A stretch of 64,000 nt of DNA from Porphyra umbilicalis. Lineage: Eukaryota > Rhodophyta > Bangiophyceae > Bangiales > Bangiaceae. The notes beneath the pieces are model-generated. The model did not search any database and was not told the DNA's origin. It saw only the letters and a program-made list of their open reading frames with translations. A program made the translations under genes and the position numbers. Of the stretch, positions 18,519-44,316 are shown piece by piece. Numbering within the stretch: the stretch's first letter is position 1; each line of letters begins with the position of its first letter. Location of the stretch: the NCBI GenBank assembly GCA_002049455.2, contig KV918808.1:124001-188000 (forward strand), given 5' to 3'.

Positions 18519-18903
18519 ATTCCAACTCGATTCGATAGTCCCGGTGTCACGATAGAACGCGCATGTCCTATTCGAAGCCGAAATACGGCACGCACACCCT
18601 ATTCAGGACAATTGGAGTATGCTACGGGCCCTCTCATTGGCTGGGCGCCAAATGATTTTATTGCCATACGTGTCTGACGACGACCGACGACGCAAAACAA
18701 CGACAGCGACACGATCGAGGCCCGATGCACTGGGCAGATGGTGACACGTGACCGAGGGACTGATGCAGACGCAAACCTTGTGAGAGGCCGCGACGTATGA
18801 GGGCGACAGAGACTCGTGGCAGGCAGCCACAAGCATGCCCACACTCCAGAACGTAGATTGATCCCCGGCAGCAATCGCGTTGCACTCTGGGCCCGACTTG
18901 TGC

Positions 18904-19301
18904 TGTGAAGTGAGCGGTAGTTGGGTGCATGCGTTGCTTTACTCGAGAGCGGTCTGAGGCGCGAGGCCAGCTGGCTCTTAACCCCTCCGTGTGCCTCTCT
19001 CGCCACGTCCTGCCGGGGCACCCCCCGCCAGCGCAGTGCTCCCTCCCTTGGAGGGTACATGCTCTCACCACCCCACTAATCGCGACGCCTCTCGAGGAGC
19101 CCACAAGAATCTCCCCGAGCTCAGCTCCAAAGTGAGCTGCCCTCGAGATACAAGTACAAGTAATTACATCACACACGTACAGCAATGCATGTCAATGGCA
19201 CAGCCAAACAAGCCGATGACCGCATAAGTACTCCTGGAATTAGCCAGGCAGTCCGCGGTAACTCCGTCTTACCTGCGCGGGCTTGGGGGGCTGCCTCAAC
19301 A
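18904..19301 (-). repeat. 3' LTR of the copia element
   Basis: 398 bp, identical to 24417-24814 except at three positions, two near the low-coordinate end and one 22 bp from the high-coordinate end. A GGGGGGAG polypurine tract lies directly upstream in element orientation (19302-19309). Confidence 0.97.
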
Positions 19302-19309
19302 CTCCCCCC
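19302..19309 (-). promoter_or_regulatory. Polypurine tract
   Basis: GGGGGGAG directly abuts the 3' LTR in element orientation. This is the expected site for plus-strand DNA priming in LTR retrotransposons. Confidence 0.75.
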
Positions 19310-19617
19310 AGCACCCCACAGTCCGCGCCATCGGCGCCTCAGCGCGGTCACAACCCGTCCCGACCAGCGCGACATCTCCCGCCATCATCCGCAGTCGAGA
19401 AAATGCCCATGTCGATCCCCAGGTTCCAGGTGTTGCACCTGTAAAATCGACCTTCGCCAGAATCACCAAAATCACGATCGATGTGAAGCAGACGTCGAGG
19501 TGAGTGCAACGCACTAGGGCGCGTCTCGAACGGAGACGATCCGGCGCATCGGCGGCCCGTCAAAGTGCGGGCGTAAACGCATCTCATCGACTTTGCCGAA
19601 AATCGGCTCGACCCGTC

Positions 19618-19639
19618 GGAGCTGTAGGCCTACAGCTCC
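19618..19639. repeat. 22-bp perfect palindrome, copy 1
   Basis: GGAGCTGTAGG followed directly by its reverse complement. The same palindrome is at 19780-19801, 162 bp away. Confidence 0.95.
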
Positions 19640-19779
19640 CTTAGCCAAAATCGGCCAAAATCGACTTGCACCAAATCGAGTCGGGCCCGACCGGCCGACT
19701 TGGCCCGAAGCTGGAGACTTCCAGATTCGGGCCCAAGACCACAAAGAAATCGACTTCACCAAAATCGACTCTACCCGTC

Positions 19780-19801
19780 GGAGCTGTAGGCCTACAGCTC
19801 C
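19780..19801. repeat. 22-bp perfect palindrome, copy 2
   Basis: Identical to the palindrome at 19618-19639, inside a direct repeat of the copia 3' region. Confidence 0.95.
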
Positions 19802-20080
19802 CGGCCGAAATCGCCCAAAATCGACTTAGGCCAAATCGAGTCGGGCGATCGCCGCGAACCCGCGGCTGCGCCACTGGTCGGCCCCAGTGGCGCCACAGCG
19901 CCCCAGGACGGTCCCAACCGGCCGTCCCCCCAAGGCAACAGCGCCCCATTGCCGGCCCCAAGCAAGTGGATGGTAGCGCAACCGTCCACGGCCGGCACCG
20001 GCCCGCAGCAAGGTCGACAGAGGTCGCTGCCGCGAATCCGGGGCTGCGCCACTGGACGCCTCCAGTGGCGACATGGCGCC

Positions 20081-22096
20081 TCAGCACTCCCCCAACAGGG
20101 GGTCGCCAAGCCCGGCGCCCCGCGCAGCCGCGCCCAGGTCTTCACCAACCCTGACGGCAGCCCGGAAAGCCGTGAACGCCGGCGACGGCAGCGGCTTGGT
20201 GAGCCCATCCGCCGGCATGTCGGCGCTCGGGAGGAAGTAGAAGGCCACATCCCCGCGCGCCTGGTAGTCGCGAACCATGTGGTAGGCGACGTCGACATGC
20301 TTGGTCCGCCCCGTCGCCTCGGGGTTGTTGACCAGCGCCAGGCAGGACTGGTTGTCCTCCCCCATCGGCACAGCTCCGCCGTCGACGCCCGGAGCCGACA
20401 GCAGCTTACGTAGCCACAGCGCCTCCTTGGTCGCCATCGCGGCGGCCACGTACTCGGCCTCGGCCGTCGAGGTGGCAACGGTCGACTGGCGCTTGCTCGC
20501 CCACGCAATCGGCCCGCCATTGCAGGTGAAGACGAAACCGGTTGTCGACCGACGACCGTCGATGTCGCCGGCCCAGTCGGCGTCGACAAACCCTTGCAGC
20601 GGCTCGCTGCCGCCGTAGACCACCCCCAGGCGAGTCGTCCCGCGCAGGTAGCGCAAAACCCCCTTGGCCGCGCGCATGTGGTCCTCCTCAGGGCAGGACA
20701 TGAAGCGCGACAGCACCCCCACGGCAAAGGCGATGTCTGGCCTCGTCGTGATAGACAGGTAGAGGAGGGAGCCAACCAACTCGGCGAAACGGTTGCCTTC
20801 CGGCAGCAGGCCCTCCCCTGTCTTGGTCAGCTTGACCCCCGACGCCATCGGTGTCTTGTTTGGCGTCGCCTTGTCCATCCCGAACGCCTCCAGCAGCGTC
20901 GCGGTGTGCCCCGGGTTGCTCAACGTCAGAGTCTTGGCCGCCCGGTTGCGCATGACCTTCATGCCGATAAAGTCCTTGACCTCCCCCATGTCGCGCACCT
21001 CAAACTTGGCAGACACGAAGCGCTTGACGGCCTCGACCCCAGCCAGCCGCTCACCCGCCACGATGAGGTCGTCGACGTACACGAGGATAAAGATGCACCC
21101 GTGCACGGGGTGGTGCCACTCATAGAGGCACGGGTCCACCTTGGAGCGGACCGCCCCCATCTCCTTGAGCTCTTTGTCGAGCTGGATGCCCCACAGCCGC
21201 CCCGCCTGCTTTGTCCCGTAGAGTGCCAGATTTAGCCGACATATCTCCTCCAGCCCCTTCGGATCGACACCGTCGGGGAGTTCGATGTACATCTCCTTGT
21301 CCATCTTGGCGTTGAGGAAGGCTGTCTTGACATCGACATGATGAACCTCCCAGCCCGTAGCTGCAGCCACAGCAAAGAGAGACCGTGTCGTAGCCGCGTT
21401 GGGCACCGGCGCCCATGTCTCATCAAAGTCGCGCCCCGGCACTTGGTTGAAACCTTGGGCCACGAGTCGGGCCTTGTAGCGCGTCATCTTGCCCTCCGCG
21501 TCGTGCTTGATGTCAAACACGAATCGCGTCTTGACGGCCTTGTGCTTCTTGTTGTTACCGTTGGTCTTGGACCAGGTGCCAAGGTTCTTGTGTGCCGCCA
21601 CCTCCTCCTTAATGGCCTGCTTCCACAGCGGCCAGTCAGGACGAGCGCGCGCCTCCTTCTCGTTTGCAGGCGGTTTGTGCAAGTCCCAGCCCGCCTCAGC
21701 CGCGGACGCGGTACCGCTTGCCAGGTACGCCTTGGGTTCCTTCTCCCACCATGTTACCTTGAGCGCTGGCTTGCGCTTCGAGCGACGAGGCCCCGGTGCG
21801 ACGCTGTCACTGGCCGCAGGTGCTTGACCGACCCAGGGTGTCGAGTCACCGTCGCCGTCATCGTCCTCTTTCTCGCTCTCTTCAGCGAGGGAAGGAGGAC
21901 TGCCATCTTCGTCGCTTGTGGAAGTTTCGTCGGGGGTGTACTCGTCCCCACGCCCGCCTTCAGCGTCGAGCATGTCCATTTCCCCTTCCGTGCCGTCGAC
22001 GCTGTCGGCGTCAGCCTCCGCAGTTAGCCGGGGACCAGCGCTTGGACCGACCGCCGACGTCTCGACCTTAGCCGGGTTCTCCTCCATCAGCACGTC
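20081..22096 (-). CDS. pol: Copia Pol, reverse transcriptase and RNase H part
   Basis: This is the second half of the copia polyprotein. It copies element RNA into DNA and degrades the RNA strand. It is in the same frame as the gag-integrase part and follows one TGA. The first residues, DVLMEE, correspond to the conserved stretch that normally links integrase to reverse transcriptase. An acidic linker (SEKEDDDGDGDS) is followed by the RT domain, with HVDVKTAFLNAKMDKEMYIELP, the catalytic LVYVDDLIVAG near 21070, and TRPDIAFAVGVLSRF. The RNase H domain shows GFVDADWAGDIDGRRSTTG, STAEAEYVAAA, and ADGLTKPL. The stop is TGA at 20081-20083. With no good ATG at the start, expression would need readthrough or repair of the upstream TGA. 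Confidence 0.93.
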   Translation of the reverse strand, partial: DVLMEENPAKVETSAVGPSAGPRLTAEADADSVDGTEGEMDMLDAEGGRGDEYTPDETSTSDEDGSPPSLAEESEKEDDDGDGDSTPWVGQAPAASDSVAPGPRRSKRKPALKVTWWEKEPKAYLASGTASAAEAGWDLHKPPANEKEARARPDWPLWKQAIKEEVAAHKNLGTWSKTNGNNKKHKAVKTRFVFDIKHDAEGKMTRYKARLVAQGFNQVPGRDFDETWAPVPNAATTRSLFAVAAATGWEVHHVDVKTAFLNAKMDKEMYIELPDGVDPKGLEEICRLNLALYGTKQAGRLWGIQLDKELKEMGAVRSKVDPCLYEWHHPVHGCIFILVYVDDLIVAGERLAGVEAVKRFVSAKFEVRDMGEVKDFIGMKVMRNRAAKTLTLSNPGHTATLLEAFGMDKATPNKTPMASGVKLTKTGEGLLPEGNRFAELVGSLLYLSITTRPDIAFAVGVLSRFMSCPEEDHMRAAKGVLRYLRGTTRLGVVYGGSEPLQGFVDADWAGDIDGRRSTTGFVFTCNGGPIAWASKRQSTVATSTAEAEYVAAAMATKEALWLRKLLSAPGVDGGAVPMGEDNQSCLALVNNPEATGRTKHVDVAYHMVRDYQARGDVAFYFLPSADMPADGLTKPLPSPAFTAFRAAVRVGEDLGAAARGAGLGDPLLGEC

Positions 22097-24259
22097 TCAA
22101 CGCTCGAAGACTGGGTTCGTCTCGTCCTCGAGGATGCGGTAGGCCTTGCCACCGACAGTGTAGCCGACAAAGCGGCCGACGTCGGTCCTTGGCTCCAGCT
22201 TACGCTGCTGCTTCTTGGGTTTGAGAACCCACGCCCGACTCCCCCAAACGCGGAATCCCGCGACGTTAGGGCGTCGACCCGTTAGAGCCTCCAGCGGCGT
22301 CACGTCCAGCCCCGCCTTGGGGGACCGGTTCAGAACATGAACGACGGAGGCCAACGCCTCAGCCCACAGCTCTTCCTCCGCTCCCGCATCGAGCAGAGCA
22401 GCACGCACGCGCTCCATCAGCGTGCGGTTCACCCGCTCCGCTTTGCCGTTCTGCTGTGACTTGTACGGCGCCGTCATCTCCGACGTGATGCCCTTGTCCT
22501 CGTACCATGCCTTGAGGTCGTTAGTGACGTACTCCTTGGCACCATCATGACGGACGCGCTTGACCTTGACCCCCGTGAGCGTCTCGAGCTGCTTAATACG
22601 CGTCCTGAGCACGTCCGGGGCCATCCCTTTTGTCTTGATAGGCGTAGCCGTGATGAACCCCGTTGAGTCCTCCAGCGCCGTCATAAAGTAGAGGGAGCCA
22701 CCCAGCGACTCAGTGAGTGGGCCACCAATGTCGGTGTGCACCAGTTCGCACTTGGTTGTCGCTGTCGACGAGCGGGGGCTCGGCGACTGAACCATCTTGC
22801 CGTCCACACACGGCACACACACAGTGCCAATGACGCGCTTAGCGTCTGCCACTGACGACGGCATGCCGTCGACCATTGTGGCCGCCCGCTTGAGGTTCTC
22901 CAACCCCAAGTGGTTGAACCGACAGTGCCACAGCTCCGCCTCCCCAGCTATGCGCGTGGATGCCGCGTTAGCCGACGCCTGGACCGGCGTTACCTTGAGC
23001 ACATATTGCTCCAGGTCGTTCACCTTGCCGACCACCGTCGCCTTGTCGAGCACCCCGCTCAAGCGAACAGCATCCCCGTCGCTGAGGATGTAACAGGCGT
23101 TGTTGACAAACACCACCGCACCTCGATTGCGGTCGACCGCTCGAACCGACAGCAGGTTGCTGGTCAGGTTCGGAACGAGCATGGCCTCCCCTAGCACCGT
23201 GCGCGTCTTGGTTTTGCCCTTGCCAACGTCCATGGAGACGTGGCCGTGCCCCTTGATGGGCACCTTATCGCCGTTGGCCAAGGTGACCTCGGCCCCGCTT
23301 CCCGCCGTCCGGACGGTGAAGCCCTTATCCCCGGCGGCCATGTGGTTGGTTGCACCAGAGTCGAGCACCCAAGTTGATGACCCCAGGGTGCTCCCGTGAG
23401 CCTTGCTGCTCCCGGCATTGCCAGTAGAAGCAGTGTAGGCCAGAGCGGCACCCGCGTGGGGCCCGCCGCCGTGGCCGCCTTCACGACCACCACCGCCGGG
23501 CTTGCCCTTGCCCTTGGCCTCGTCCGCCTTCTTCTTGTAGCAGTCGCGCTGCATGTGCCCCTTCTTGTTGCAGTAGAAGCACACGACCGACTTCTTGTCG
23601 AACGGCTTATTAGGCGCCGCTGCCGCAAAGGCTTGTGACTTGACACTGCCAGAAGGCTTGGAAGCGCCGACAGAACTGCTCCGCTGCTCGACTTGAAGCA
23701 GCTTAGCCGTCACGTCCGACATGACGAGCTTAGTGTCCATGTTCTCCAACACCGTCCTGAGCATCCCGTACTCTGCCGGGAGCCCTGCCAGGACACGCAG
23801 CGCAAGCGTGTTGTCGTCCACCGGGTTTCCGAGCATGGCGAGCTCGTCCCGGAGCATCTTGGCGCACGACGCAAACTTGATGATGTTCTCGTCGCCGCCC
23901 TTCTTCAGGCTGCTCAGCTCGTCCATGAGCCGCAGAAGCTGCGCGTTGTCTCGCGCCTCGAACATGACCTTAAGCGCGTCCCACGCCTCCTTGGCCGTGT
24001 CCACCGAAGTGACCGTGTTGAGATGCACGGGCTTGACCGACATCTGGATGGTCGCCAGCGCCGCCTCGTTCATGGCGTCCCACGCGTCGACCACCGGGTC
24101 GGACTTCTTGTCGTCGGACGAAGATGCCGGTCGGTCCGACACGACCGCCGCCCAGAGCTTCTCCTTCTTGAGCTGCGCACGCTGGTACGCTGCCCACACC
24201 TTGTAGTCGTCGTCCAGCTGCGCAAACCGCGGGCCGCCATAGCGGCCGTGGTCTGCCAT
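22097..24259 (-). CDS. gag-pol: Copia Gag, protease and integrase part
   Basis: This part encodes the capsid and the maturation and insertion enzymes of the copia element. Gag runs from MADHGRYGG (ATG at 24259) through a UBN2-like region (WDALKVMFEARDN, LRVLAGLPAEY). A CCHC zinc knuckle CFYCNKKGHMQRDC follows near 23540-23585. The aspartic protease signature is WVLDSGATNHM near 23350. Integrase has an HHCC finger (HCRFNHLG and CVPC) and the DDE core: VHTDIGG, RHDGAKEY and QQNGKAERVNRTL. It ends ...NPVFER at TGA 22097-22099, in frame with the RT part. An upstream in-frame ATG at 24412 overlaps the primer-binding site, so 24259 is the more likely start. A CGA-to-TGA change would explain the stop. 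Confidence 0.93.
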   Translation of the reverse strand: MADHGRYGGPRFAQLDDDYKVWAAYQRAQLKKEKLWAAVVSDRPASSSDDKKSDPVVDAWDAMNEAALATIQMSVKPVHLNTVTSVDTAKEAWDALKVMFEARDNAQLLRLMDELSSLKKGGDENIIKFASCAKMLRDELAMLGNPVDDNTLALRVLAGLPAEYGMLRTVLENMDTKLVMSDVTAKLLQVEQRSSSVGASKPSGSVKSQAFAAAAPNKPFDKKSVVCFYCNKKGHMQRDCYKKKADEAKGKGKPGGGGREGGHGGGPHAGAALAYTASTGNAGSSKAHGSTLGSSTWVLDSGATNHMAAGDKGFTVRTAGSGAEVTLANGDKVPIKGHGHVSMDVGKGKTKTRTVLGEAMLVPNLTSNLLSVRAVDRNRGAVVFVNNACYILSDGDAVRLSGVLDKATVVGKVNDLEQYVLKVTPVQASANAASTRIAGEAELWHCRFNHLGLENLKRAATMVDGMPSSVADAKRVIGTVCVPCVDGKMVQSPSPRSSTATTKCELVHTDIGGPLTESLGGSLYFMTALEDSTGFITATPIKTKGMAPDVLRTRIKQLETLTGVKVKRVRHDGAKEYVTNDLKAWYEDKGITSEMTAPYKSQQNGKAERVNRTLMERVRAALLDAGAEEELWAEALASVVHVLNRSPKAGLDVTPLEALTGRRPNVAGFRVWGSRAWVLKPKKQQRKLEPRTDVGRFVGYTVGGKAYRILEDETNPVFER

Positions 24260-24401
24260 GTTGACGACCTCGGCGCCGCACAGCGCCGCACTAACGACGT
24301 AGGGAGCAGAACACGCCCGCCCGACGCCGGAACACACCGCGATCCCAGCCACGTCGTCTCGCCAGCGACCGCAGGGAAGACGACGGTTACCACCAGCGAC
24401 A

Positions 24402-24416
24402 GCTGGGCCCATAACC
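24402..24416 (-). promoter_or_regulatory. Primer-binding site matching the anticodon arm of initiator tRNA-Met
   Basis: The plus strand here reads GCTGGGCCCATAACC, directly next to the 5' LTR. That is the anticodon stem-loop of eukaryotic initiator tRNA-Met (anticodon CAT). The element RNA would therefore pair with an internal part of that tRNA rather than its 3' end. This is the half-tRNA priming known from Drosophila copia and yeast Ty5. Confidence 0.85.
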
Positions 24417-24814
24417 TGTGAAGTGAGCAGTAGTTGGGTGGATGCGTTGCTTTACTCGAGAGCGGTCTGAGGCGCGAGGCCAGCTGGCTCTTAACCCCTC
24501 CGTGTGCCTCTCTCGCCACGTCCTGCCGGGGCACCCCCCGCCAGCGCAGTGCTCCCTCCCTTGGAGGGTACATGCTCTCACCACCCCACTAATCGCGACG
24601 CCTCTCGAGGAGCCCACAAGAATCTCCCCGAGCTCAGCTCCAAAGTGAGCTGCCCTCGAGATACAAGTACAAGTAATTACATCACACACGTACAGCAATG
24701 CATGTCAATGGCACAGCCAAACAAGCCGATGACCGCATAAGTACTCCTGGAATTAGCCAGGCAGTCCGCGGTAACTCCGACTTACCTGCGCGGGCTTGGG
24801 GGGCTGCCTCAACA
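24417..24814 (-). repeat. 5' LTR of the copia element
   Basis: 398 bp, three differences from the 3' LTR. It is followed outward by target duplication TGTGC at 24815-24819. Confidence 0.97.
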
Positions 24815-25172
24815 TGTGCCTCTCGAGTCGTGTGCGAGGAATGAGAATCAGGGGGAGCGGTGGACGCGCAGCTCATGCTACGTAACAGTCAGTGAAGTGT
24901 GAGTGCGTGGGACGTACACCTGTCGATGCGGATGTCGTAGTACTGGCTGCCAGCCTCTCCTACGTATGAGAGAGTCGTCAGCGCTGTTGAGCCTGATTGG
25001 TCACGCGACACGATTGGTTCAGCGACTAACACTGATTCCAAGGCTGTACCGGATGGCAGGTACGGCCCGGCTGCGCCAGAATATGCGCGGTCTGCCGGGG
25101 GTGCCAGCGGGGGGGTGTCCCAGAACCGAGGCGCACGCCTGCCCCTGTCGTCGCCTTGCCTCACCTGCCGCT

Positions 25173-25232
25173 GTGCTCGCCACCGTCGTGCTCGCCACCG
25201 TCGTGCTCGCCACCGTCGTGCTCGCCACCGTC
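25173..25232. repeat. 15-bp tandem repeat, four perfect copies
   Basis: GTGCTCGCCACCGTC repeated four times, 30 bp before the transposase ATG. In the transposase frame it reads as repeats of CSPPS, which would be an unusual N-terminal extension if translated. Confidence 0.95.
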
Positions 25233-25263
25233 GTGCTCGTGGCCGGCGCCGCCTGCGCGCACC

Positions 25264-27278
25264 ATGGACGCTGCAATGACTATGAGTGGGTGGGAGGAGG
25301 ACGAGGGCGTCAACGATGACGTCACCACCGCGGTGGTAGTCGCCGCTCACGTGGCCACTCTTCTGGATTCGCGACGGCGGGCTCTCGCGGCCGCGCAAGT
25401 GCACAGGCCGCGGTACCGGGGCTCCGTGCCCGATCGGTTGGCCAATCGGCCGCGAAATTTTGAGCTTGGCCTCCAGTGCATCCTTCGCGACTCTTTTGGC
25501 GTCGACGGCCTTCCCCCGGTTTTCGGTCGACAACAGTTTGAGCGACGATTTCGCGTGCCGTTGCCGGTCTTCCTGCGGATCTACCATGCTATCAAGGACC
25601 GCCCGTTCTGGGCGCAACGTGTCAACGCAACCGGGCAGCCGCAGGCCCACCCGCTTCAAAAGCTGGTGGCCGCGTTCCGCGCGCTGGCGTACGGAGAATC
25701 GTACGACCGCGCGGACGAGTACGTGCGCTTGTCCAGATCTACAATCGCGCGCGCGGTCAAGCTCTTCACCGAGTTCATGGTCGACGAGCTCGGTCCACAC
25801 TACCTGCAGCCACCCACGCCCCCTGAGATTGAGAAGATCCTTGCCCGCAATGATGAGCGTGGGTTGCCTGGCTGTCTCGGTTCTCTTGATTGCTCTCACT
25901 GGGAGTGGTCCTCGTGCTCTAAGGCGCGGGCGGGGACGTACCAGGGCCGGGATGGGCGGCGATCGATTGTGATTGAGGCCATCTGCGATGAGGACACGTG
26001 GATCTACCACATCTTCGCGGGGAGTCCGGGAAGCCTCAATGATATTAACGTCCTGTACCAATCGCCTATGTATGGCTGATCCCCGAATTTTGTCCTGGTG
26101 GACAGAGACTGACTTGCAGACCGACTCTCTCCACCAATCAGATGCGCCCCTCGGACTGACTTGGTGCGCCTGATTGCTTACATGTGCCCATCCAGCCTGG
26201 AAATCGACATCAGCTCCTCTCTTTTTCTGCACATCTGGCAAGGAAACAGTAGAAAATCTCAAGATCTCGCGTAGGCAGCTTGCTCCGTGCCAAGAAAATC
26301 GGATCAAGCGGCAACAAACAGTGAGTTCTGCTGGATGCAAGGTCCTGGTACCGAATGCGGGCTTTCTATTGGCTTCGATGCCTTCTTACTGTCGTTTTCG
26401 ACCAATAGAGTGCTGTTATTCACCGTCAGTCTCTGTCTCTGTCCCGCAGGACAAAATTCGGGGATCAGCAATATATGGATGTTATCACGGGAAAGTGGCC
26501 GCCCCGTGAGTTTTCGTTCACTGTGAACGGTAATACCCGAACTTTGCTTTATCACCTGGTGGACGGAATCTATCCCCGCTTCGCGTTCTTCGTTGCCCCT
26601 TTCCCCACCCCGCAGACTCTCGAGCAGCGCACGTTCAACCGTCTTCAAGAGGCTCTGCGGATGGACGTAGAGCGTCTTTTCGGCATCCTCACGGCGCGAT
26701 TCCACGTCATGTTGCACCCTTGCCGAATGTGGACGGTCCCCCAGATGGTGCTAACGACGCAGACTGTTGCCATTCTTCACAATATGGTGGTCGAGGCACG
26801 CAGGGATGGTTTCCTGTCGCGCTCGCGCTCGTCCCACTATGGGGCGGACGCTGCCGGCGCGGGGGCTGATCTGGGCGGGGGTGGCGCGGTCGCCGGCGCC
26901 GCTGACGGTGCGGGTGTCGGCGGCGCGGCGGGAGACGATGGGGCGGGCGCGGCTGGCGCGGCTGCTGGCGCCGCTGAAGGCGCAGGGGCCGGCGGCGGCG
27001 GCGCGGGAGGCGCTGGGGCGGACGGGGCGGACGGGGATGGCGCGGGGTCTGGCGCCGCCGATGGGGCAGGCGGCGCCGCGGGCGCGGCTGCCGCGGGCGC
27101 CGCCGACGGCGCTGGGGCCGGCGGTGGCGCTGCGGTAGACGCCGGGGCGGGCGCGAACATCGGCGGCGGTGCGCCGGGAGTGGCCGGGGAGGGAGGTCAC
27201 GGGGGGGGGGTGGCGGGGCAGGAGGTTCTGGGGCTGGAGGCGCAGGTGCTGCTGCAGGGGGTCGGCTGGGCGACCTAG
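25264..27278 (+). pseudogene. PIF/Harbinger transposase (plant transposon protein type), split by a MITE
   Basis: This is the DDE nuclease of a PIF/Harbinger DNA transposon. From ATG 25264 the frame runs to 26073 and includes GCLGSLDCSHWEW (first catalytic Asp) and GSLNDINVLYQSP (second Asp). There a 398-bp MITE interrupts it and brings a TGA at 26077. Coding resumes at 26475 in a register that joins the two halves without frame change. It continues VNGNTRTLLYHLVDGIYP, then MDVERLFGILTARF (third acidic residue, Glu), then AILHNMVVEARRDG. All catalytic residues survive, so the damage is the insertion alone. The C-terminal part becomes a Gly/Ala-rich tail ending at 27278. After a G-run near 27201-27210 another frame reads APMSEFMQILMATGEAKSREE to about 27466 and may be the true C terminus. 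A convergent Myb/SANT-like gene at 31.9-33.7 kb is a likely partner. Confidence 0.88.
26074..26471. mobile_element. MITE inserted in the Harbinger transposase
   Basis: About 398 bp with inverted ends. The left reads GCTGATCCCCGAATTTTGTC; the right ends with its reverse complement, CAAAATTCGGGGATCAGC. The match extends to about 33 bp with two mismatches (through GGACAGAGAC). The host gene sequence on either side suggests a 2-3 bp duplication (TA or TAT at 26071-26073 and 26472-26474). There is no coding capacity. A related end lies alone at 7968-8006. The superfamily is uncertain; TA would suggest Tc1/mariner. Confidence 0.85.
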
Positions 27279-27699: not shown

Positions 27700-30350
27700 G
27701 GAAGCCTTTGCGAGGGCGGCCACCGCAGCGCGAATCACCCCGCACGCCGTCGTCGTCTGTGCGCGGCGGCGGCCGCCGCCGCTCCACGCCGGGCACAGCG
27801 AGGCGACGGCGGCCGCCTCTATTGTTCCCCTACGTCAGCGACCGCCGCCACGCCCAACCATGCGCGGCGGCGGCCGCCGTACTTGTTTCTTACGGCAGCG
27901 GCCGCCGTCGTGCCACATGACGTGCGGCGGCGGCCGCCGTACTTGTTGCTTACGGCTAGGCGGCCGCCGCCGTGCCGTACCATGCGCGGTGGCGGCCGCC
28001 GCTCTTGGTCCCCTGCGGCGGCGGCCGCCGCCGTGCAACATGATGCGCGGCCGCGGCCGCCTCACTTGTTCCCTGACGGCGGCCGCCGCCATCCTTATTG
28101 CTTACAACGGGGCGGCCGCCGCCGCGCCACACCATGCGCGGCGGCGGCCGCGCCACACCATGCGCGGCGGCGGCCGCCCCACGTGTTCCCTTATGTCGGC
28201 GGCCGATGCCGTGACAGAACACGCGAGGCGGCGGCCGCCGTACATGTTGCTTTCAGCGGCTGCCGCCGCCGTGCGCCATCACGTGCGGCGGCGGCCGCCG
28301 CACTTGTTCTCTTACGGCGGGGCGGCCGCCGCCGTGCCGTACCATGCGCGGTGGCGCCTGCCGCACTTGTTCTGTTACGGCGGCGGCCGCCGGCGTGCCA
28401 CATCACGTGCGGCGGCGGCCGCCGTACTTGTTCCCTTACGGCGAGGCGGCTGCCGCCGTGCCGCACCATGCGCGGTGGCGGCCGCCGCACGTGTTCTGTT
28501 ACGGCGGCGGCCGCCGGCGTGCCACATCACGTGCCGCTACTGCCACCGTACATGCTTGCTGGCGGCGGCGGCCGCCGCCATGCTCTACCATGAGCGGCCG
28601 CGGCCGCCGCACTTAATCTGTTACGGCGGCGGCCGTTGCCGTGCCACATCACGCGAGGCGGCGGCCGCCGTACTTGTTGCTTAAGGCGGCGGCCGCCATC
28701 GTGCCACATCACGCGAGGCGGCGGCCGCCGTGCTTGTTGCTTACGGCGGCGGCCGCCGTCGTGCCGCATCACGTGCGGCGGCGCCCGTTGTACTTGTTTC
28801 TTTACAGCGGGGCGGCCGCCGCCGTCCCGCATTATGCGCGGTGGCGGCCGCGGCACTTGTTGCTTACGGCGGCGGCCGCCGCCACGCCAAACCATGCGCC
28901 GCGGCGGCCGCCGTACTTGTTGCTTACGGCAGCGGCCGCCGTCGTGCCACATGACGTGCGGCGGCGGCCGCCGTACTTGTTGCTTACGGCGGCGGCCGCC
29001 GCCGTGCCACATCATGCGAGGCGGCGGCCGCCGCACTTGTTCTGTCACGGCAGCGGCCGCCGGCGTGTCACATCACGCGAGGCGGCGGCCGCCGTACTTG
29101 TTGCTTATGGCGGCGGCTGTCGTCGTGCCACATCACGTGCGGCGGCGGCCGCCGTACTTGTTGCCTCACGGCGGGGCGGCCGCCGCCGTGCCGCTCCATG
29201 CGCGGCGGCGGCCGCCGTACTTGTTGCTTACGGCGGCGGCCGCCGTCGTGCCACATCACGTGCGGCGGCGGCCGCCGTACTTGTTCCCTTACGACGGGGC
29301 GGACGCCGCCGTGCCGCACCATGCGCGGTGGCGGCCGCCGCACGTGTTCTGTTACGGCGGCGGCCGCCGTCGTGCCACATCACGCGCGGCCGCGGCCGCC
29401 GCACTTGTTCCCTGACGGCGGCCGCTGCCGTCCTTGCTTCATCACGCGTGGCGGCGGCCGCCGGACTTGTTCCCGTACGGCGGGGCGGCCGCCGCCGTGT
29501 CTTACAATGCCCGGCGGCGGCGGCTGCCGCACGTGCTCCCTTACAGCGGCGACCGCCGCCGTCTCACATCGTGCGCGGCCGCTGCAGCCGCACGCGTTCC
29601 TCGACGGCGGCGGCCGCCGCCGTGCCACACCAGGCGCGGCGGCGGCCGCCGTACTTGTTGCTGATGGCGCCGTGCCACATCACGCGCGGCGGTGGCCGCC
29701 GGACGTGTTCCCTTACGGCGGGGCGGCCGCCGCCGGCGTACCATGCGCGACGGCGGCCGCTGCCCCCGCTCCCCAACGGCGGCGTCTGCCGCCACGCGAC
29801 ACCACGGGCGGCGGCGGCCGCCACACTTGTTGCGTTTGGCGGCGGCCGCCGCCGTGCCACATCACGCGCGGTGGCGGCCGCCGCACGTGTTCCCGTACGG
29901 CGGCAGCCGCCCACGTGCCGCATCACGCGCCGCTGCTGCCGCCGTACATGTTCGCTGGCGGCGGCGGCCGCCGCCGTGCACCACCATGAGCGGCCGCGGC
30001 AGCCGCCCACGTGCCGCATCACGCGCCGCTGCTGCCGCCGTACATGTTCGCTGGCGGCGGCGGCCGCCGCCGTGCACCACCATGAGCGGCCGCGGCCGCC
30101 GCACTTGTTCTGTTACGGCGGCGGGCCGCCGCCTTGCCACACCATGCGCAACGGTGGAGGCCGCCGCACTTGTTGTGTGGCGACGGCTGCCGCCGCCGCG
30201 CACCGCCGGGCGCGGGGGCGGTGGCCGTTCTTGTTGTACGGCAGCGGCGGCCGCCGCCACTCATCGGTCCGCGCGGAGGCAGCGGCAGCACTTGTGCTCG
30301 TGCTGCGGCGGCCGCCACAGCCCGACGCACTGCGCGGGCGCGGCGGCCGC
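27700..30350. repeat. Large GC-rich tandem array, 60-bp unit with GGCGGCCGCC cores
   Basis: About 2.65 kb of degenerate tandem units. The typical 60-bp unit carries two GGCGGCCGCC palindromes separated alternately by a GTGCCACATCACGTGC-type and a GTACTTGTTGCTTAC-type spacer. Roughly 40 or more units are present, with variable edges. Because 60 is a multiple of three and the unit has no stops, long open frames exist in all plus frames. The largest spans 28641-30551 with 20-residue repeats. I regard these as by-products of the repeat, although coding use cannot be excluded. Similarity decays towards 30350-30550. Confidence 0.9.
29904..30095. repeat. Perfect 96-bp duplication inside the 60-bp array
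   Basis: The segment starting CAGCCGCCCACGTGCCGC at 29904 repeats without visible change from 30000, giving a 96-bp period. It indicates a recent local expansion. Confidence 0.85.
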
Positions 30351-34300: not shown

Positions 34301-34339
34301 CCACCACCACCTACAGCTCCTGCGGCGGGCTCGACGGTG

Positions 34340-36985
34340 GCGTGTCGGGCGGCGTGCCGCCACTCAACCTCGGCGGGCTCGTCGGCCGGTTGGCGGGCGG
34401 CGCGCCGCCGCTCGACGTCGGCACGCTCGTCGGCCGGTTGGGGGCGGCGCGCCGCCCTCGCCCCGCGGGCTTCGGCCGGTTGGCGGGCGGCGCGCCGCCG
34501 CTCGACGTCGGCGGCTCGTCGGCCGGTGGGGCGGCGCGCCGCCCTCGACCTCCGGCGGGCTCGTCGGCCGGTTGGCGGGCGGCGCGCCGCCCTCGACGTC
34601 GGCACGCTCGTCGGCGGGTTGGGGGGGGCGCGCCGCTTCGACCGGCGGGCTCGTCGGCGGTTGGCGGGCGGCGCGCCGCCGCTCGACCTCGGCGGCTCGT
34701 CGGCCGGTTGGCGGGCGGCGCGCCGCCGCTCGACGTCGGCACGCTCGTCGGCCGGTTGGGGGGCGGCGCGCGCCGCTCGACGTCGGCGGGCTCGTCGGCG
34801 GGTTGGGGGGCGGCGCGCCGCCGCTCGACGCCGCTGCGGCGGGGGCGGCGCGCCGCCTTGCGCGGCGGGCTGTCGGGCGGGGGCGCGCCCGCGCTGACCT
34901 CGGCGGGCTGGTCGGCGGGTTGCGGGGCGGCGCGCCGCCGCTCGTACCGTCGGCGGCGCCTCGGTCGGCGGCTTCGGCGGGGGGCGGCGCGCCGCCTCTC
35001 GCCGCCGGCGGGCTCGTCGGCCGGTTGGCGGGCGGCGCGCCGCCGCTCGACGTCGGCACGCTCGTCGGCGGGTTGGGGGCGGCGCGCCGCCTCTCGCCGC
35101 CGGCGGGCTCGTCGGCCGGTTGGCGGGCGGCGCGCCCGCCGCTCGACCGTCCGACGGGCTTCGTCGGCGGGTTGGGGGGCGGCGCGCCGCCGCTCGACGT
35201 CGGACGGGCTCGTCGGCGGGTTGGGGGCGGCGCGCCGCCGCTCGACGTCGGCGGGCTCGTCGGCGGGTTGGCGGGCGGCGCGCCGCCGCTCGTCGTCGGC
35301 GGCTCGTCGGCAGGCTGGGGGCGGCGCCTCGCCGCTGGACCTCGGCGGGCTGGTCGGCGGGTTGCGGGGCGGCGCGCCGCCGCTCGTCGTAGGCGGACTT
35401 GTCGGCGGGTTGGGGGGCGGCGCGCCGCCTCTCGCCGTCGGCAGGCTCGTCGGCAGGTTGGGGGCGGCGCGCCGCCGCTCGTCGTCGGCAGGCTCCTCAG
35501 CGAGTTGGAGGGCGCACGCCGCGCTCGTCGTAGGCGACTTGTCGGCGGGTTGGGGGGCGGCGCGCCGCCTCTCGCCGTCGCAGGCTCGTCGGCAGGTTGG
35601 GGGGCGGTGCGCCGCCGCTCGTCGTCGGCAGGCTCCTCAGCGGTTGGAGGGCGGCGCGCCGCCGCTGGACCTTGGCGGGCTCGTCGGCGAGTTTGGGGCG
35701 GCGCGCCGCCGCTCGCCCACCGGCGGGCTTGACGACTGATCGCCGGTCGGCGCGCTGCCGCTCGACCTTGCCTGACTCGTCGGCGGGTTGGGGGCGGCGC
35801 GCCCGCCACTCGACGTTGGCGGGCTTGACGGCCTGTCGCCGGGCGGCGCGCCGCCGCTCGTCCTCTGCGGGCTTGAAGCTCGGACAGTCTGGCGGACCGC
35901 CGCCGCTCGACCGCGGCGGGCACGAAGCCCAAGTATCGGGCGGAGCGCCGCCGTTTAACCTCGGAGGGCTCGTAGGCGGGTTGGGGGGCGGCGCGCCGCC
36001 GCTCGACCTCGGTGACCTTGTCGGCCGGTTGCCGGGCGGCGCGCCGCCGCTAGACCTCGGGCCGGCTCGTCGGCGGGTTGGGGGGCGGCGCGCCGCCGCT
36101 CCACCTTGGCGGCTCTGCCGTCGTCGCTTGGGGCGCGCACCGCCGCTCCACCTCGGCGGGCTCGGCCGTCGCTGCTCGGGACGGCCGCCGCCCGACCTCG
36201 GCGGGCTTTGTGGTCGATGAATAGGCGGCGAACCGGCCGCCCCACGTACGCGGACTGGACGGTCGTCGCTCTGGCGGCACACCGCCGCCCCACCTCTGCG
36301 GGCTAGGCTGCCGTTGGTCGAGCGGCGCGCCGCCGCCCCACCTCGGCGAGCTAGACGGCCGTCGGTCTTGCGGCGCGCCGCCGGTCCACCGCGGCGGGCT
36401 GGACGGCCGTCGGTCCAGCGGCGCGCCGCCGCCCACCTCGGCGGGCTCGGCTGCCGTCGGTAGTACGGAGAGCCGCCGCCCACCTCGGCGGGCTCGGCTG
36501 CCGTCGGTCGAGCGGCGCGCCGCCGGTCCACCTCGGCGGGCTGGACGGCCGTCGTTCCAGCGGCGCGCCGCCGCCCCACCTCGGCGGGCTCGGCTGCCGT
36601 CGGTAGTGTGGAGAGCCGCCGCCCCACCGCGGCGGGCTCGGCTGCCGTCGGTCGAGCGGCGCGCCGCCGGTCCACCTCGGCGGGCTGGACGGCCGTTGTT
36701 CCAGCGGCGCGCCGCCGCCCCACCTCGGCGGGCTCGGCTGCCGTCGGTAGTGTGGAGAGCCGCCGCCCCACCGCGGCGGGCTCGGCTGCCGTCGGTCTTG
36801 CGGCGCGCCACCGGTCCACCGCGGCGGGCTGGACGGCCGTCGGTCCAGCGGCGCGCCGCCGCCCCACCTCGGCGGGCTCGGCTGCCGATGGTCGAGCGGC
36901 GCGCCGCCGCCCACCTCGGCGGCTCGGCGGCCGTCGGTCGAGCGGCGCGCCGCCGCCCCACCTCGGAGGGCTCGTTGGTCGGGCC
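34340..36985. repeat. Large GC-rich tandem array, 48-bp unit with GGCGCGCC core
   Basis: About 2.6 kb, roughly 50-55 units of about 48 bp. Each centres on the palindrome GGCGCGCC, usually extended to GGCGGCGCGCCGCC. Subfamily A (34340-36090) carries CTCGTCGGCGGGTTGGGG. Subfamily B (about 36090-36985) carries CTCGGCTGCCGTCGGTC, with the same CTCGGCGGG border and orientation. Single-base slips are common. The unit is stop-free and a multiple of three, so arginine/proline-rich open frames of up to 730 residues appear on both strands. I treat them as artefacts. Confidence 0.92.
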
Positions 36986-42366: not shown

Positions 42367-43665
42367 TCACTTGCCCCCCACCAGCGACCGGTGCAGCATC
42401 CCCCCCGGCTGGTGGAGGGCGCGGAGCTCCGCGAGCGCCTCGCCGAGCTCCTCGAGCGTCACGTCATTCACCACGACCGCCTCGCCAATGGCGGTGACGA
42501 GGGGCAGCCGCTGGCGGCCACCCCGGTGTTCCACCGCGTCGACGAGCCCCGCCCACAGCACCTCCACCCCGCACCCGTCGTGCCACGTGGGGAGGGCGAG
42601 GCGGGCCATGACGCGGAGGATGCGGTCCCGCGTCGCCCCGTCAATCCACCCGCGGCGGGCCGACAGGACGACGCACAGGACGCCGTCGAGGTTGACCGCC
42701 TCCCCGTGCATGAGGCCGTCGGGGCCCGCCGGGTGGTTCATCTCGAGGATTTTGGAGAAGGTGTGCCCATAGTCGACGACGCGCTCGAGGTTGGCCTCCC
42801 ACAGGTTGGGGCCGAGCTCCTCGAGCATCATCTGCACCGACAGCTCGACGACGCGGGTGGCAACGGGGGCAATAGTGGCGGCGGTGGTAGCGGCGGCGGC
42901 GGTGGTCGTCGCCGCCTCGCCCGCGTCCGCGTCGGTGGCGGTGGAGGCGGCAGCGGCGGGTGTGGGTGCGGGGGCGGGGGCGGGGGCCACCCCCCCAAAC
43001 CGCGAGTCGATGAGCGCCCGCCCGTGCACTTCGAGCAGCGCAAACAGCTCGGCCGACCGCACGAGCGCGAGCTTCATCACCTCCCCGAGCCCATTGACCA
43101 CATTCCGCTCGTCTTGCGTCGCGACAAACGCCACGTCAAGAAAGGCGGCGAGCGGCGGGTAAAAGGCGCCCATGCGGTTTTTGAGCCCCCCGTGCACCGG
43201 GTCGGCCCAATCGACGCCCGTCTTGACGCCGACCGACGCGTCGACGAGCGCGAGGAGCGTCGTCGGCACGCGGATGTAGGGCACCCCGCGGCGGTACATG
43301 GACGCCGCAAAGCCGACAATGTCGAGCACGACGCCGCCGCCAATGGCGAGGATCGGCTCGCGGCGGTGGAGCCCAAAGTCGACGAGCGCCTCAAAGAGCG
43401 CGTGCACCGCCGGCAGCGTCTTGTTCTCCTCCTCCCCGCGGAGGATGAGCGTGCGCGTCGGGATGCCCTGCGCGTCGAAGTAGGCGGCCAGGCGGGCGCC
43501 ATACACCTCCGCGACGGCCGCGTCGACGACCAGAAAGCGGCGGGCGGGCGTGCCGGCCGGCCGGTGCCGGTGGGCGAGGGTGGGGTTGGCAGGATTGAGC
43601 AAGTCCGTGTACATTTCTACCGTGTACTGTTGGGGGGGGGGGGGGGGAGGGGGGGGAGGCAGCAT
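42367..43665 (-). CDS. Sugar-phosphate cyclase (dehydroquinate-synthase superfamily, EEVS/DDGS-like)
   Basis: These enzymes close sedoheptulose 7-phosphate or a related sugar into a cyclitol, using NAD and a metal. DDGS makes the core of mycosporine sunscreens, and EEVS leads to gadusol or pseudosugars. Visible motifs: the NAD-binding GGGVVLDIVGFAASMYRRG (about residue 110), IRVPTTLLALVDASVGVKTG, and the metal ligands in NGLGEVMKLALV (Glu near 195), YGHTFSK (His near 300) and LMHGEAVN (His near 320). NGLGEVMK and PNLWEANLERVVDYGHT are closer to EEVS/DDGS than to true dehydroquinate synthase. A low-complexity Ala/Thr insert follows residue 220. The 432-residue model starts at ATG 43665 before a proline run; an upstream in-frame extension to 43992 exists but looks noncoding. 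No O-methyltransferase domain is fused. EEVS versus DDGS is not settled. Confidence 0.8.
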   Translation of the reverse strand: MLPPPPPPPPPQQYTVEMYTDLLNPANPTLAHRHRPAGTPARRFLVVDAAVAEVYGARLAAYFDAQGIPTRTLILRGEEENKTLPAVHALFEALVDFGLHRREPILAIGGGVVLDIVGFAASMYRRGVPYIRVPTTLLALVDASVGVKTGVDWADPVHGGLKNRMGAFYPPLAAFLDVAFVATQDERNVVNGLGEVMKLALVRSAELFALLEVHGRALIDSRFGGVAPAPAPAPTPAAAASTATDADAGEAATTTAAAATTAATIAPVATRVVELSVQMMLEELGPNLWEANLERVVDYGHTFSKILEMNHPAGPDGLMHGEAVNLDGVLCVVLSARRGWIDGATRDRILRVMARLALPTWHDGCGVEVLWAGLVDAVEHRGGRQRLPLVTAIGEAVVVNDVTLEELGEALAELRALHQPGGMLHRSLVGGK

Positions 43666-44316
43666 AGAAAAGTGAGGCGCAAAGGACGAGCAAGAGGCAA
43701 GCCGACCAGCAGCAGCGCAAGCAGGTCGTAGGTCGCAAAAATAACCAGACGCACGAGTGTCAGTGCTGCCGCTCAGCTCGCAGCCAACATGCGGGCGGCC
43801 CGGCAGGCGGCCCGGCAGGCCCCGTTGGCGCCACCCGCCGTCGGCAGGCCGTCGCGGCGCCCCCCCATCGCGACCACGCTGACCCTGCCCCGTGCCCCCG
43901 GGGGACGCCAGCCCGTCCCTCACCCGCCCCCGCCCCCGAGACGAGCCCCCCGCCACCCGTGCCGTGGGTGTTGCCACCGGCACCGCCGTCAAGAGACCGC
44001 AGCGGCGCGCTCAACGGGGCGGCCGGCCGGCCCGCCCCTCTGCCCGACACCCGTTCGACGGCCAGCGCGCACACACAGCATCAGCGACGCTGCCTCCCAG
44101 CCATCCCCCCCACCCCCCACCCCCCCCCTCACCACGACCGCCCTCGCCGTCACCACCGCACCCATCGGCGGCTCCACGCCACCGCGCAAGCAAGCAGCCC
44201 ACGGGGCAGCCGCCGACCACACACACACACACACACCCACCCACCCACACACACGCGAGCACGGCTGTCATGCGCCACCCCCCCCCCCCCCCCCCCCCAC
44301 CCCCCCAACAACGCAC
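43666..44316. other. Spacer with CA/ACCC microsatellite
   Basis: Contains a dinucleotide and tetranucleotide repeat (ACAC... then CCACCCAC) at 44213-44255 and a C-run of about 18 near 44280. There is no supported gene. Confidence 0.6.
44213..44255. repeat. CA/CCCA microsatellite
   Basis: About ten AC units, three CCCA units, then four more AC units. Confidence 0.9.

Follow-up and report, generated by a model that had tools for sequence, protein, structure and literature searches.

What primes reverse transcription of an LTR retrotransposon whose primer binding site (PBS) resembles the middle of a tRNA? The question is raised by 15 nucleotides, GCTGGGCCCATAACC on the plus strand, at positions 24402–24416 of a 64,000-nt stretch of Porphyra umbilicalis DNA (hereafter the window; C48:124001–188000 of the searched assembly of 83.8 Mb and 665 contigs). 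The original prediction, made from the letters of the window, was that these nucleotides equal the anticodon stem-loop of initiator tRNA-Met, that they lie directly beside the 5′ LTR of a copia element in what is probably a red alga, and that they represent half-tRNA priming as in Drosophila copia and yeast Ty5. The guess about the host was right, P. umbilicalis being a bangiophycean red alga: contig C665 of the assembly encodes an acetylglutamate kinase with 100% identity to the P. umbilicalis plastid protein. The remaining claims are taken up below together with the distribution of the site in the genome.

Anatomy of the element

The site belongs to a Ty1/copia retrotransposon of 5,911 bp that occupies 18904–24814 of the window on the minus strand and has the following parts:

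18899–18903: left target-site duplication, GCACA on the minus strand, identical to 24815–24819
18904–19301, minus strand: 3′ LTR, 398 bp, 395 of 398 positions identical to 24417–24814
19302–19317, minus strand: polypurine tract (PPT), GGGGTGCTGGGGGGAG, read directly, adjoining the 3′ LTR
20081–22093, minus strand: RT and RNase H part of pol (Pfam RVT_2, E 2.2e-55; the translation contains TRPDI, an RNase H motif)
22097–22099, minus strand: in-frame TGA between integrase and RT in the window copy
22100–24259, minus strand: gag, protease and integrase, likely start codon 24257–24259 (MADHGRYGG...)
24402–24416, minus strand: PBS, GGTTATGGGCCCAGC, complementary to nt 25–39 of the host initiator tRNA-Met
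24417–24814, minus strand: 5′ LTR, 398 bp, from comparison of the LTR pair
24815–24819: right target-site duplication, GCACA on the minus strand

The LTRs are direct repeats with three differences that start with TGTTGA and end with TTCACA, and the 5-bp duplication GCACA is present at both ends of the element; TG...CA LTRs, a PPT and a short target duplication, as expected of Ty1/copia elements (Pseudoviridae), are thus all present. The order gag, protease, integrase, RT, RNase H is also that of copia: Pfam matches follow one another as Retrotran_gag_2, zf-CCHC (20.2 bits, slightly below the cut-off of 20.8), Pol_BBD, gag_pre-integrs, rve and SH3, with RVT_2, the copia-type RT, 3′ of integrase. 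RNase H is assigned by the TRPDI motif alone, which has been named as an RNase H motif (PMC3587641, in the part available). The two open reading frames (22097–24412 and 20081–22093) share one frame that is split by the TGA, and in several relatives the frame stays open over 1,456 codons, so the window copy is a stop-bearing member of a family with unbroken copies.

The PBS necessarily contains an AUG, the complement of the CAU anticodon, which in the window copy is in frame with gag and stands in a context that we take to be strong. The idea that the leader is coding sequence and that gag starts at this AUG was rejected, as there is no coding constraint upstream of the ATG at 24257–24259: between A (L002) and B (L007) copies the leader has 12 replacement and 6 silent codon changes, compared with 15 and 46 in gag. 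The leader frame also meets a stop at codon 18 in some copies of sub-family A, and has only seven residues in the copies read of a second family, D′ (described below).

Several other features of the window were recorded. Immediately next to the copia element, at its 5′ end, two plus-strand open reading frames (25156–27278) jointly span the Plant_tran transposase profile (positions 2–94 and 96–203). A cyclase of 3-dehydroquinate-synthase type is encoded at 42367–43992 on the minus strand; it scores 192 bits against an NCBIfam aroB cut-off of 305, and so is perhaps a related sugar-phosphate cyclase. Two GC-rich arrays, at about 27805–30150 and at 34323–36960, have repeats of roughly 60 nt and 48 nt.

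The site, the host tRNA and the lineages that share them

The PBS adjoins the 5′ LTR without a gap and is the exact reverse complement of nt 25–39 of the 72-nt host initiator tRNA-Met. The predicted match to the anticodon arm therefore holds against the host's own tRNA, where a mismatch had been named as the result that would count against it. It is the sole match in the window at up to three mismatches; chance alone would give about 2.9 such loose matches there, and for that reason weight is given to the exactness of the match and to its position alone. Hemivirus elements are marked by a PBS that pairs with an internal stretch of initiator tRNA-Met, and here the complementarity is exact over nt 25–39; the length of the tRNA segment is an ICTV criterion for that genus (PMC8515867, in excerpt), and Hemivirus and Pseudovirus are not clearly separated on trees (PMC3599292, in excerpt).

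Across the genome the exact 15-mer occurs at 155 places (79 forward, 76 reverse), compared with none for a reversed control. Five of these places are tRNA genes, in which the match extends to a longer exact anticodon arm, GCTGGGCCCATAACCCAGAGG (21 nt, no mismatch), and all five were read by eye as initiator tRNA-Met genes. One mark of an initiator tRNA is A1–U72. Another is A54 (PMC3978253, in the part available). One gene (L033) is a plain 72-nt tRNA-Met that is called by ARAGORN and scores 65.5 bits in Rfam. The other four (L031, L032, L034 and L035) have no ARAGORN call, and the D loop of each is lengthened by a 12-nt insert that differs among them and leaves 72 nt once removed. The insert lies at about position 20/21, the position of the junction in a permuted red-algal tRNA gene (the same source, PMC3978253). 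Two further tRNA-like sequences were seen: an initiator tRNA 3′ half with an altered anticodon stem (L048, C50:298340), which is either a broken or a split tRNA gene and is flanked on its contig by two complete ones; and a 21-mer repeat, ACTGGGCCCATAACCCGGAGG, that resembles the initiator anticodon arm at 27 places plus three close variants (L036–L047, L049–L060 and others), with no LTR-like end beside it in six copies inspected.

The remaining places were related to RT genes. Searching the genome at the protein level with the window-family RT gave 66 copies at 85–100% identity (66 of 915 candidates scored), and 39 of the 66, the window copy included, are free of stops over the part of RT that matched (counted by eye). 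The rows for counting the site were chosen by their RT and not by the PBS, on those contigs that the first 100 listed places of the site cover. For the window family these are the 39 of 66 RT rows that lie on contigs C1–C175: the exact 15-mer stands upstream in the right orientation in 28 of the 39 (two control counts gave 0 upstream on the same strand and 2 downstream, whichever the strand), at a spacing of exactly 2,309 bp in 22 of the 28. Among the 150 of 767 RVT_2 candidates that were scored, 55 rows lie on C1–C57, and 38 of the 55 have the exact site 2,596–2,644 bp upstream (with control counts of 2 for the same strand and 4 for downstream). The exact site is missing in 11 of 39 and 17 of 55 copies in the two counts; three of these 28 were inspected, all from the RVT_2 count (L100–L102), and in each the half-tRNA site is present and differs by a single substitution, located at the LTR edge. 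A 14-mer plus the LTR edge, with up to one mismatch, has 564 matches in the genome, and an LTR-like end lies beside the site in the element copies inspected, L009 excepted. A standard 3′-end primer site in related copies, which had also been named as telling against half-tRNA priming, did not appear in place of these sites.

These copies do not all belong to one family. In D′ (L092–L098) the leader and LTR differ from those of the window family, and five of its seven loci are among the sites paired with RVT_2 rows at 2,596–2,644 bp. A tree was made of 29 RT sequences hand-picked from 242 proteins, among them some partial rows and a very long one from Ectocarpus, with D′ represented by the RT of L099 (C36), which was chosen by its 2,605-bp spacing and not by its leader. 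Volvox africanus and Klebsormidium nitens share a 14-row clade (99/100) with the window family, which has a 7-row subclade of its own there (100/100), whereas the D′ RT is placed outside the 14-row clade and pairs with P0177 (97/92); its best named relatives in the protein search are plant and oomycete proteins at 48–50%. Forcing the window family and D′ into one clade cost 138 log units and was rejected (p-AU 3.9e-50), the clade constraint being a group fixed after the protein searches had been seen. The exact 15-mer is also carried by two lineages of gag, F (L009 and L010) and E (L012), which are copia-type by Pfam; F is 28.5% and E 30% identical to the gag of the window element, and the two are 42% identical to one another. 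Taken together, at least four lineages share the site (E and F being known from gag alone), which shows that more than one copia lineage carries this type of PBS. The presence of the same PBS in two separate lineages is compatible with age, with repeated origin or with exchange between lineages.

The site is shared as well by much smaller elements. The clearest, L020 (1426–1731 in element orientation), is 306 bp long and has LTRs of about 75 bp, the PBS, a PPT (GGGGGGAG) adjoining its 3′ LTR, and the duplication CCCGC. Its relatives L001 and L016 have LTRs of about 78 bp; no target duplication was seen at L001, and L016 is a tandem array with shared LTRs. A 32-nt piece of the mini LTR, with up to three mismatches, is found at 62 places in the genome (control 0), and no coding region was seen in the mini-elements. 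They fit the TRIM type, as L020 in particular is short and non-coding and has two LTRs, a PBS, a PPT and a duplication. TRIMs such as Cassandra are likewise a few hundred bp long and non-coding, with LTRs, a PBS and LTR-sharing tandem arrays (PMC7215508, in excerpt). They differ in that Cassandra has the PBS TGGTATCAGAGC and a 5S promoter in its LTR, whereas the mini-elements have the half-tRNA PBS and LTRs of 75–78 bp. Half-tRNA TRIMs may be new. A tRNA-like pol III promoter is not claimed: A-box-like letters are visible by eye, while a scan gave an A box in two of five loci and a B box in none of the five. Rfam found no tRNA in seven mini-element loci.

A half-tRNA-Met PBS is itself a known type. 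Drosophila copia and yeast Ty5, both of Hemivirus type, resemble the window element in copia gene order and in a PBS for the anticodon arm of initiator tRNA-Met (a likeness by description) and differ from it in that its host is a red alga. Half-tRNA-Met sites are also on record for the green-algal Osser and for Bryco and part of Gymco-II in plants (PMC6317226, in excerpt). The window element therefore belongs to a known type, and the weight that the original prediction placed on the red-algal case, as evidence of an old or repeatedly arisen mechanism, was overstated. The Osser lineage is another point of comparison: it has the half-tRNA-Met PBS in common (same excerpt), and the window RT groups with those of Volvox africanus and Klebsormidium in a tree that was built without the Osser type element itself. 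The window family is nevertheless 45–46% identical to the named green-algal proteins and separate from them in its 7-row subclade. The GalEa-like copia elements of red algae (PyRE10G and CoPorcru) are of the same superfamily and also have red-algal hosts. In metazoan GalEa, however, the PBS is TGGTAGCAGAGC, for the 3′ end of tRNA-Met (PMC3587641 and PMC5445492, in excerpt), and such a site was not found in the window element with the host tRNA 3′ ends as query. A red alga is thus added to the animals, fungi and green plants with half-tRNA sites on record, with hundreds of places in one genome. No literature report of a half-tRNA PBS in a red alga was found, in a partial search that did not extend to the Porphyra yezoensis copia papers (Gene, J Mol Evol). 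The second, separate copia RT lineage, the two gag lineages and the TRIM-like type on the same PBS are possibly new. Searches of other databases gave two rows in PDB (E 0.45 and 0.69), with no relative, and, for the PBS plus LTR edge, two stretches in IMG/VR that had no tblastn match to three copia RTs and were taken as chance.

Candidate mechanisms of priming

Element anatomy, exact complementarity, position, recurrence upstream of RT genes and the lack of a competing PBS in the window element can all be read from the sequence itself. From these we infer that the 15 nt are very probably the minus-strand PBS of a Ty1/copia LTR retrotransposon that is primed by a cleaved half of initiator tRNA-Met. 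The tRNA would be cut after nt 39, within the 3′ strand of the anticodon stem, and the resulting 5′ half (nt 1–39) would anneal to the PBS through nt 25–39 (15 nt). The 3′ end of the half (...GGGCCCAUAACC) would join the U5 letters: since this new end would lie directly against the LTR, synthesis would begin by copying the final base of U5. What follows would be the usual course of reverse transcription, with its two strand transfers, and an integration that duplicates 5 bp of the target.

Other readings of the site have to be set against this one. The site could bind the anticodon arm of intact tRNA during packaging or annealing, with priming elsewhere or after enzymes of the element nick the bound tRNA; there is precedent for more than one tRNA contact in the bipartite PBS of Ty1 and Ty3 (PMC5371799, in excerpt). 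We regard this as improbable, given that no further match of at least 10 nt to either type of initiator tRNA occurs in the 5.9-kb element (scattered 9-nt matches do), that a search of the window with the host's own tRNA 3′ ends, allowing up to three mismatches, gave no PBS of the 3′-end type, and that the match stops precisely at the edge of the LTR, the place where the 3′ end of a primer is required. Genome-wide, the tRNA 3′-end pattern at up to two mismatches gave 96 places compared with 94 for its reversed control, three of the places being exact. A longer site with a second contact, to the D arm of the tRNA, was also considered, based on D-arm-like letters 3′ of the PBS in some families, and was dropped, as the loci had been picked by the 15-mer and the families were few.

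A chance resemblance, or a conserved leader motif unconnected with priming, would gain something from the three-mismatch matches that are expected by chance in the window. It is hard to reconcile with 155 exact places and none in the control, with the same site in the otherwise unrelated leaders of four gag or RT lineages and of the mini-elements, and with the LTR-like end that adjoins it in the copies inspected other than L009, and we consider it very improbable. Least probable of all, to the point of being barely credible, is self-priming of the Tf1 type: the 5′ LTR and the initial 60 nt of the internal region have no Watson–Crick complement of at least 8 nt in common. A structured PBS was rejected, as RNA folds of two U5–PBS regions showed no gain in stability over shuffled sequences (z 0.86 and 1.21).

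For a primer made by cleavage, the enzyme that makes the cut is a separate matter. The primer of Drosophila copia is also a 39-nt half. RNase P is said to cut tRNA within its mature sequence (reportedly in work by Kikuchi of 1990 and 1992, the earlier title naming the copia primer), and tRNA halves in general are products of several nucleases. By analogy with copia, which uses a half-tRNA, and with Ty5, for which anticodon-loop priming with RNase P has been described (PMC5371799, in excerpt), RNase P is a plausible cutter here too. An RNase P RNA gene is present in the host genome at one place (78.1 bits), and a search of the host for PRORP, run without a positive control, found nothing. That the half is made by another tRNA nuclease, with the site working alike, is unlikely though well within reach: several nucleases could supply it, and the proposals for copia and Ty5 and the presence of the RNA in the host lean towards RNase P, neither of which is a test.

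Junctions between families at the primer binding site

LTR and inside, on the two sides of the PBS, were compared in 39 rows (38 places, L001 and L091 being one place). Three main pairs of LTR and inside account for 29 of the 39 rows, and five loci mix types of different families: a mini LTR with a window-family inside (L004 and L027), a D′ LTR with a mini inside (L014 and L022), and one mini LTR type with the other mini inside (L016). L012, with a mini LTR and an E inside, may be another. LTR ends were also compared across the 79 window-family insides whose site is intact; they have the usual TTCACA in 70, CAACA in five, a CCACA variant in three and TTAACA in one. Six window-family loci have the odd ends CAACA or TTAACA: a mini LTR lies directly upstream at those on C18, C124 and C143, the one on C3 is L004, and the others are on C208 and C252.

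The loci on C18 and C124 are composites in which a mini LTR, PBS and window-family inside, and an LTR, PBS, mini inside and mini LTR, occur in that order (the second PBS of C18 has one substitution). In both, the mini LTRs are 5,300 bp apart and the 5-bp outer flanks are identical (GCCTC/GCCTC at C18, GCACC/GCACC at C124). The equal spacing may mean that one composite has moved, perhaps, and not that two events took place. At C9 the mini LTRs are 4,778 bp apart and the flanks agree at four of five positions (TTGGT/CTGGT), and at C143 they are 5,833 bp apart and the flanks disagree (TGAGG/GGAGC).

With moderate confidence, and on the evidence of the letters, these junctions can be read as strand-transfer exchanges at a common primer site. 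Strong-stop DNA of one family would be transferred onto another at the PBS, thereby swapping LTRs. A template switch between co-packaged RNAs at the shared PBS is the simplest account, because second-strand transfer pairs exactly there; a rival for the composites is later recombination of cDNA circles or of chromosomal copies at the same 15 bp. Fused LTR elements in Triticeae have similarly been ascribed to switching during reverse transcription (PMC1950507, in excerpt). The two named examples there are each of one family, with the PBS unmentioned in that excerpt, whereas here different families are joined exactly at the PBS, and such junctions between families may be new.

Strand transfer at the shared site leads to a broader and more tentative proposal, which we hold as possible without favouring it: that the initiator-tRNA half serves in P. 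umbilicalis as a common site of priming and exchange, giving LTR swaps and composites that integrate with duplications of their own, so that this type of PBS spreads by exchange and not by descent alone. Spread of that kind, if true, would account for the lack of a single clade of half-tRNA users. With the site shared by autonomous and mini-elements and the junctions falling exactly there, exchange at the PBS is testable both in sequence and in particle cDNA.
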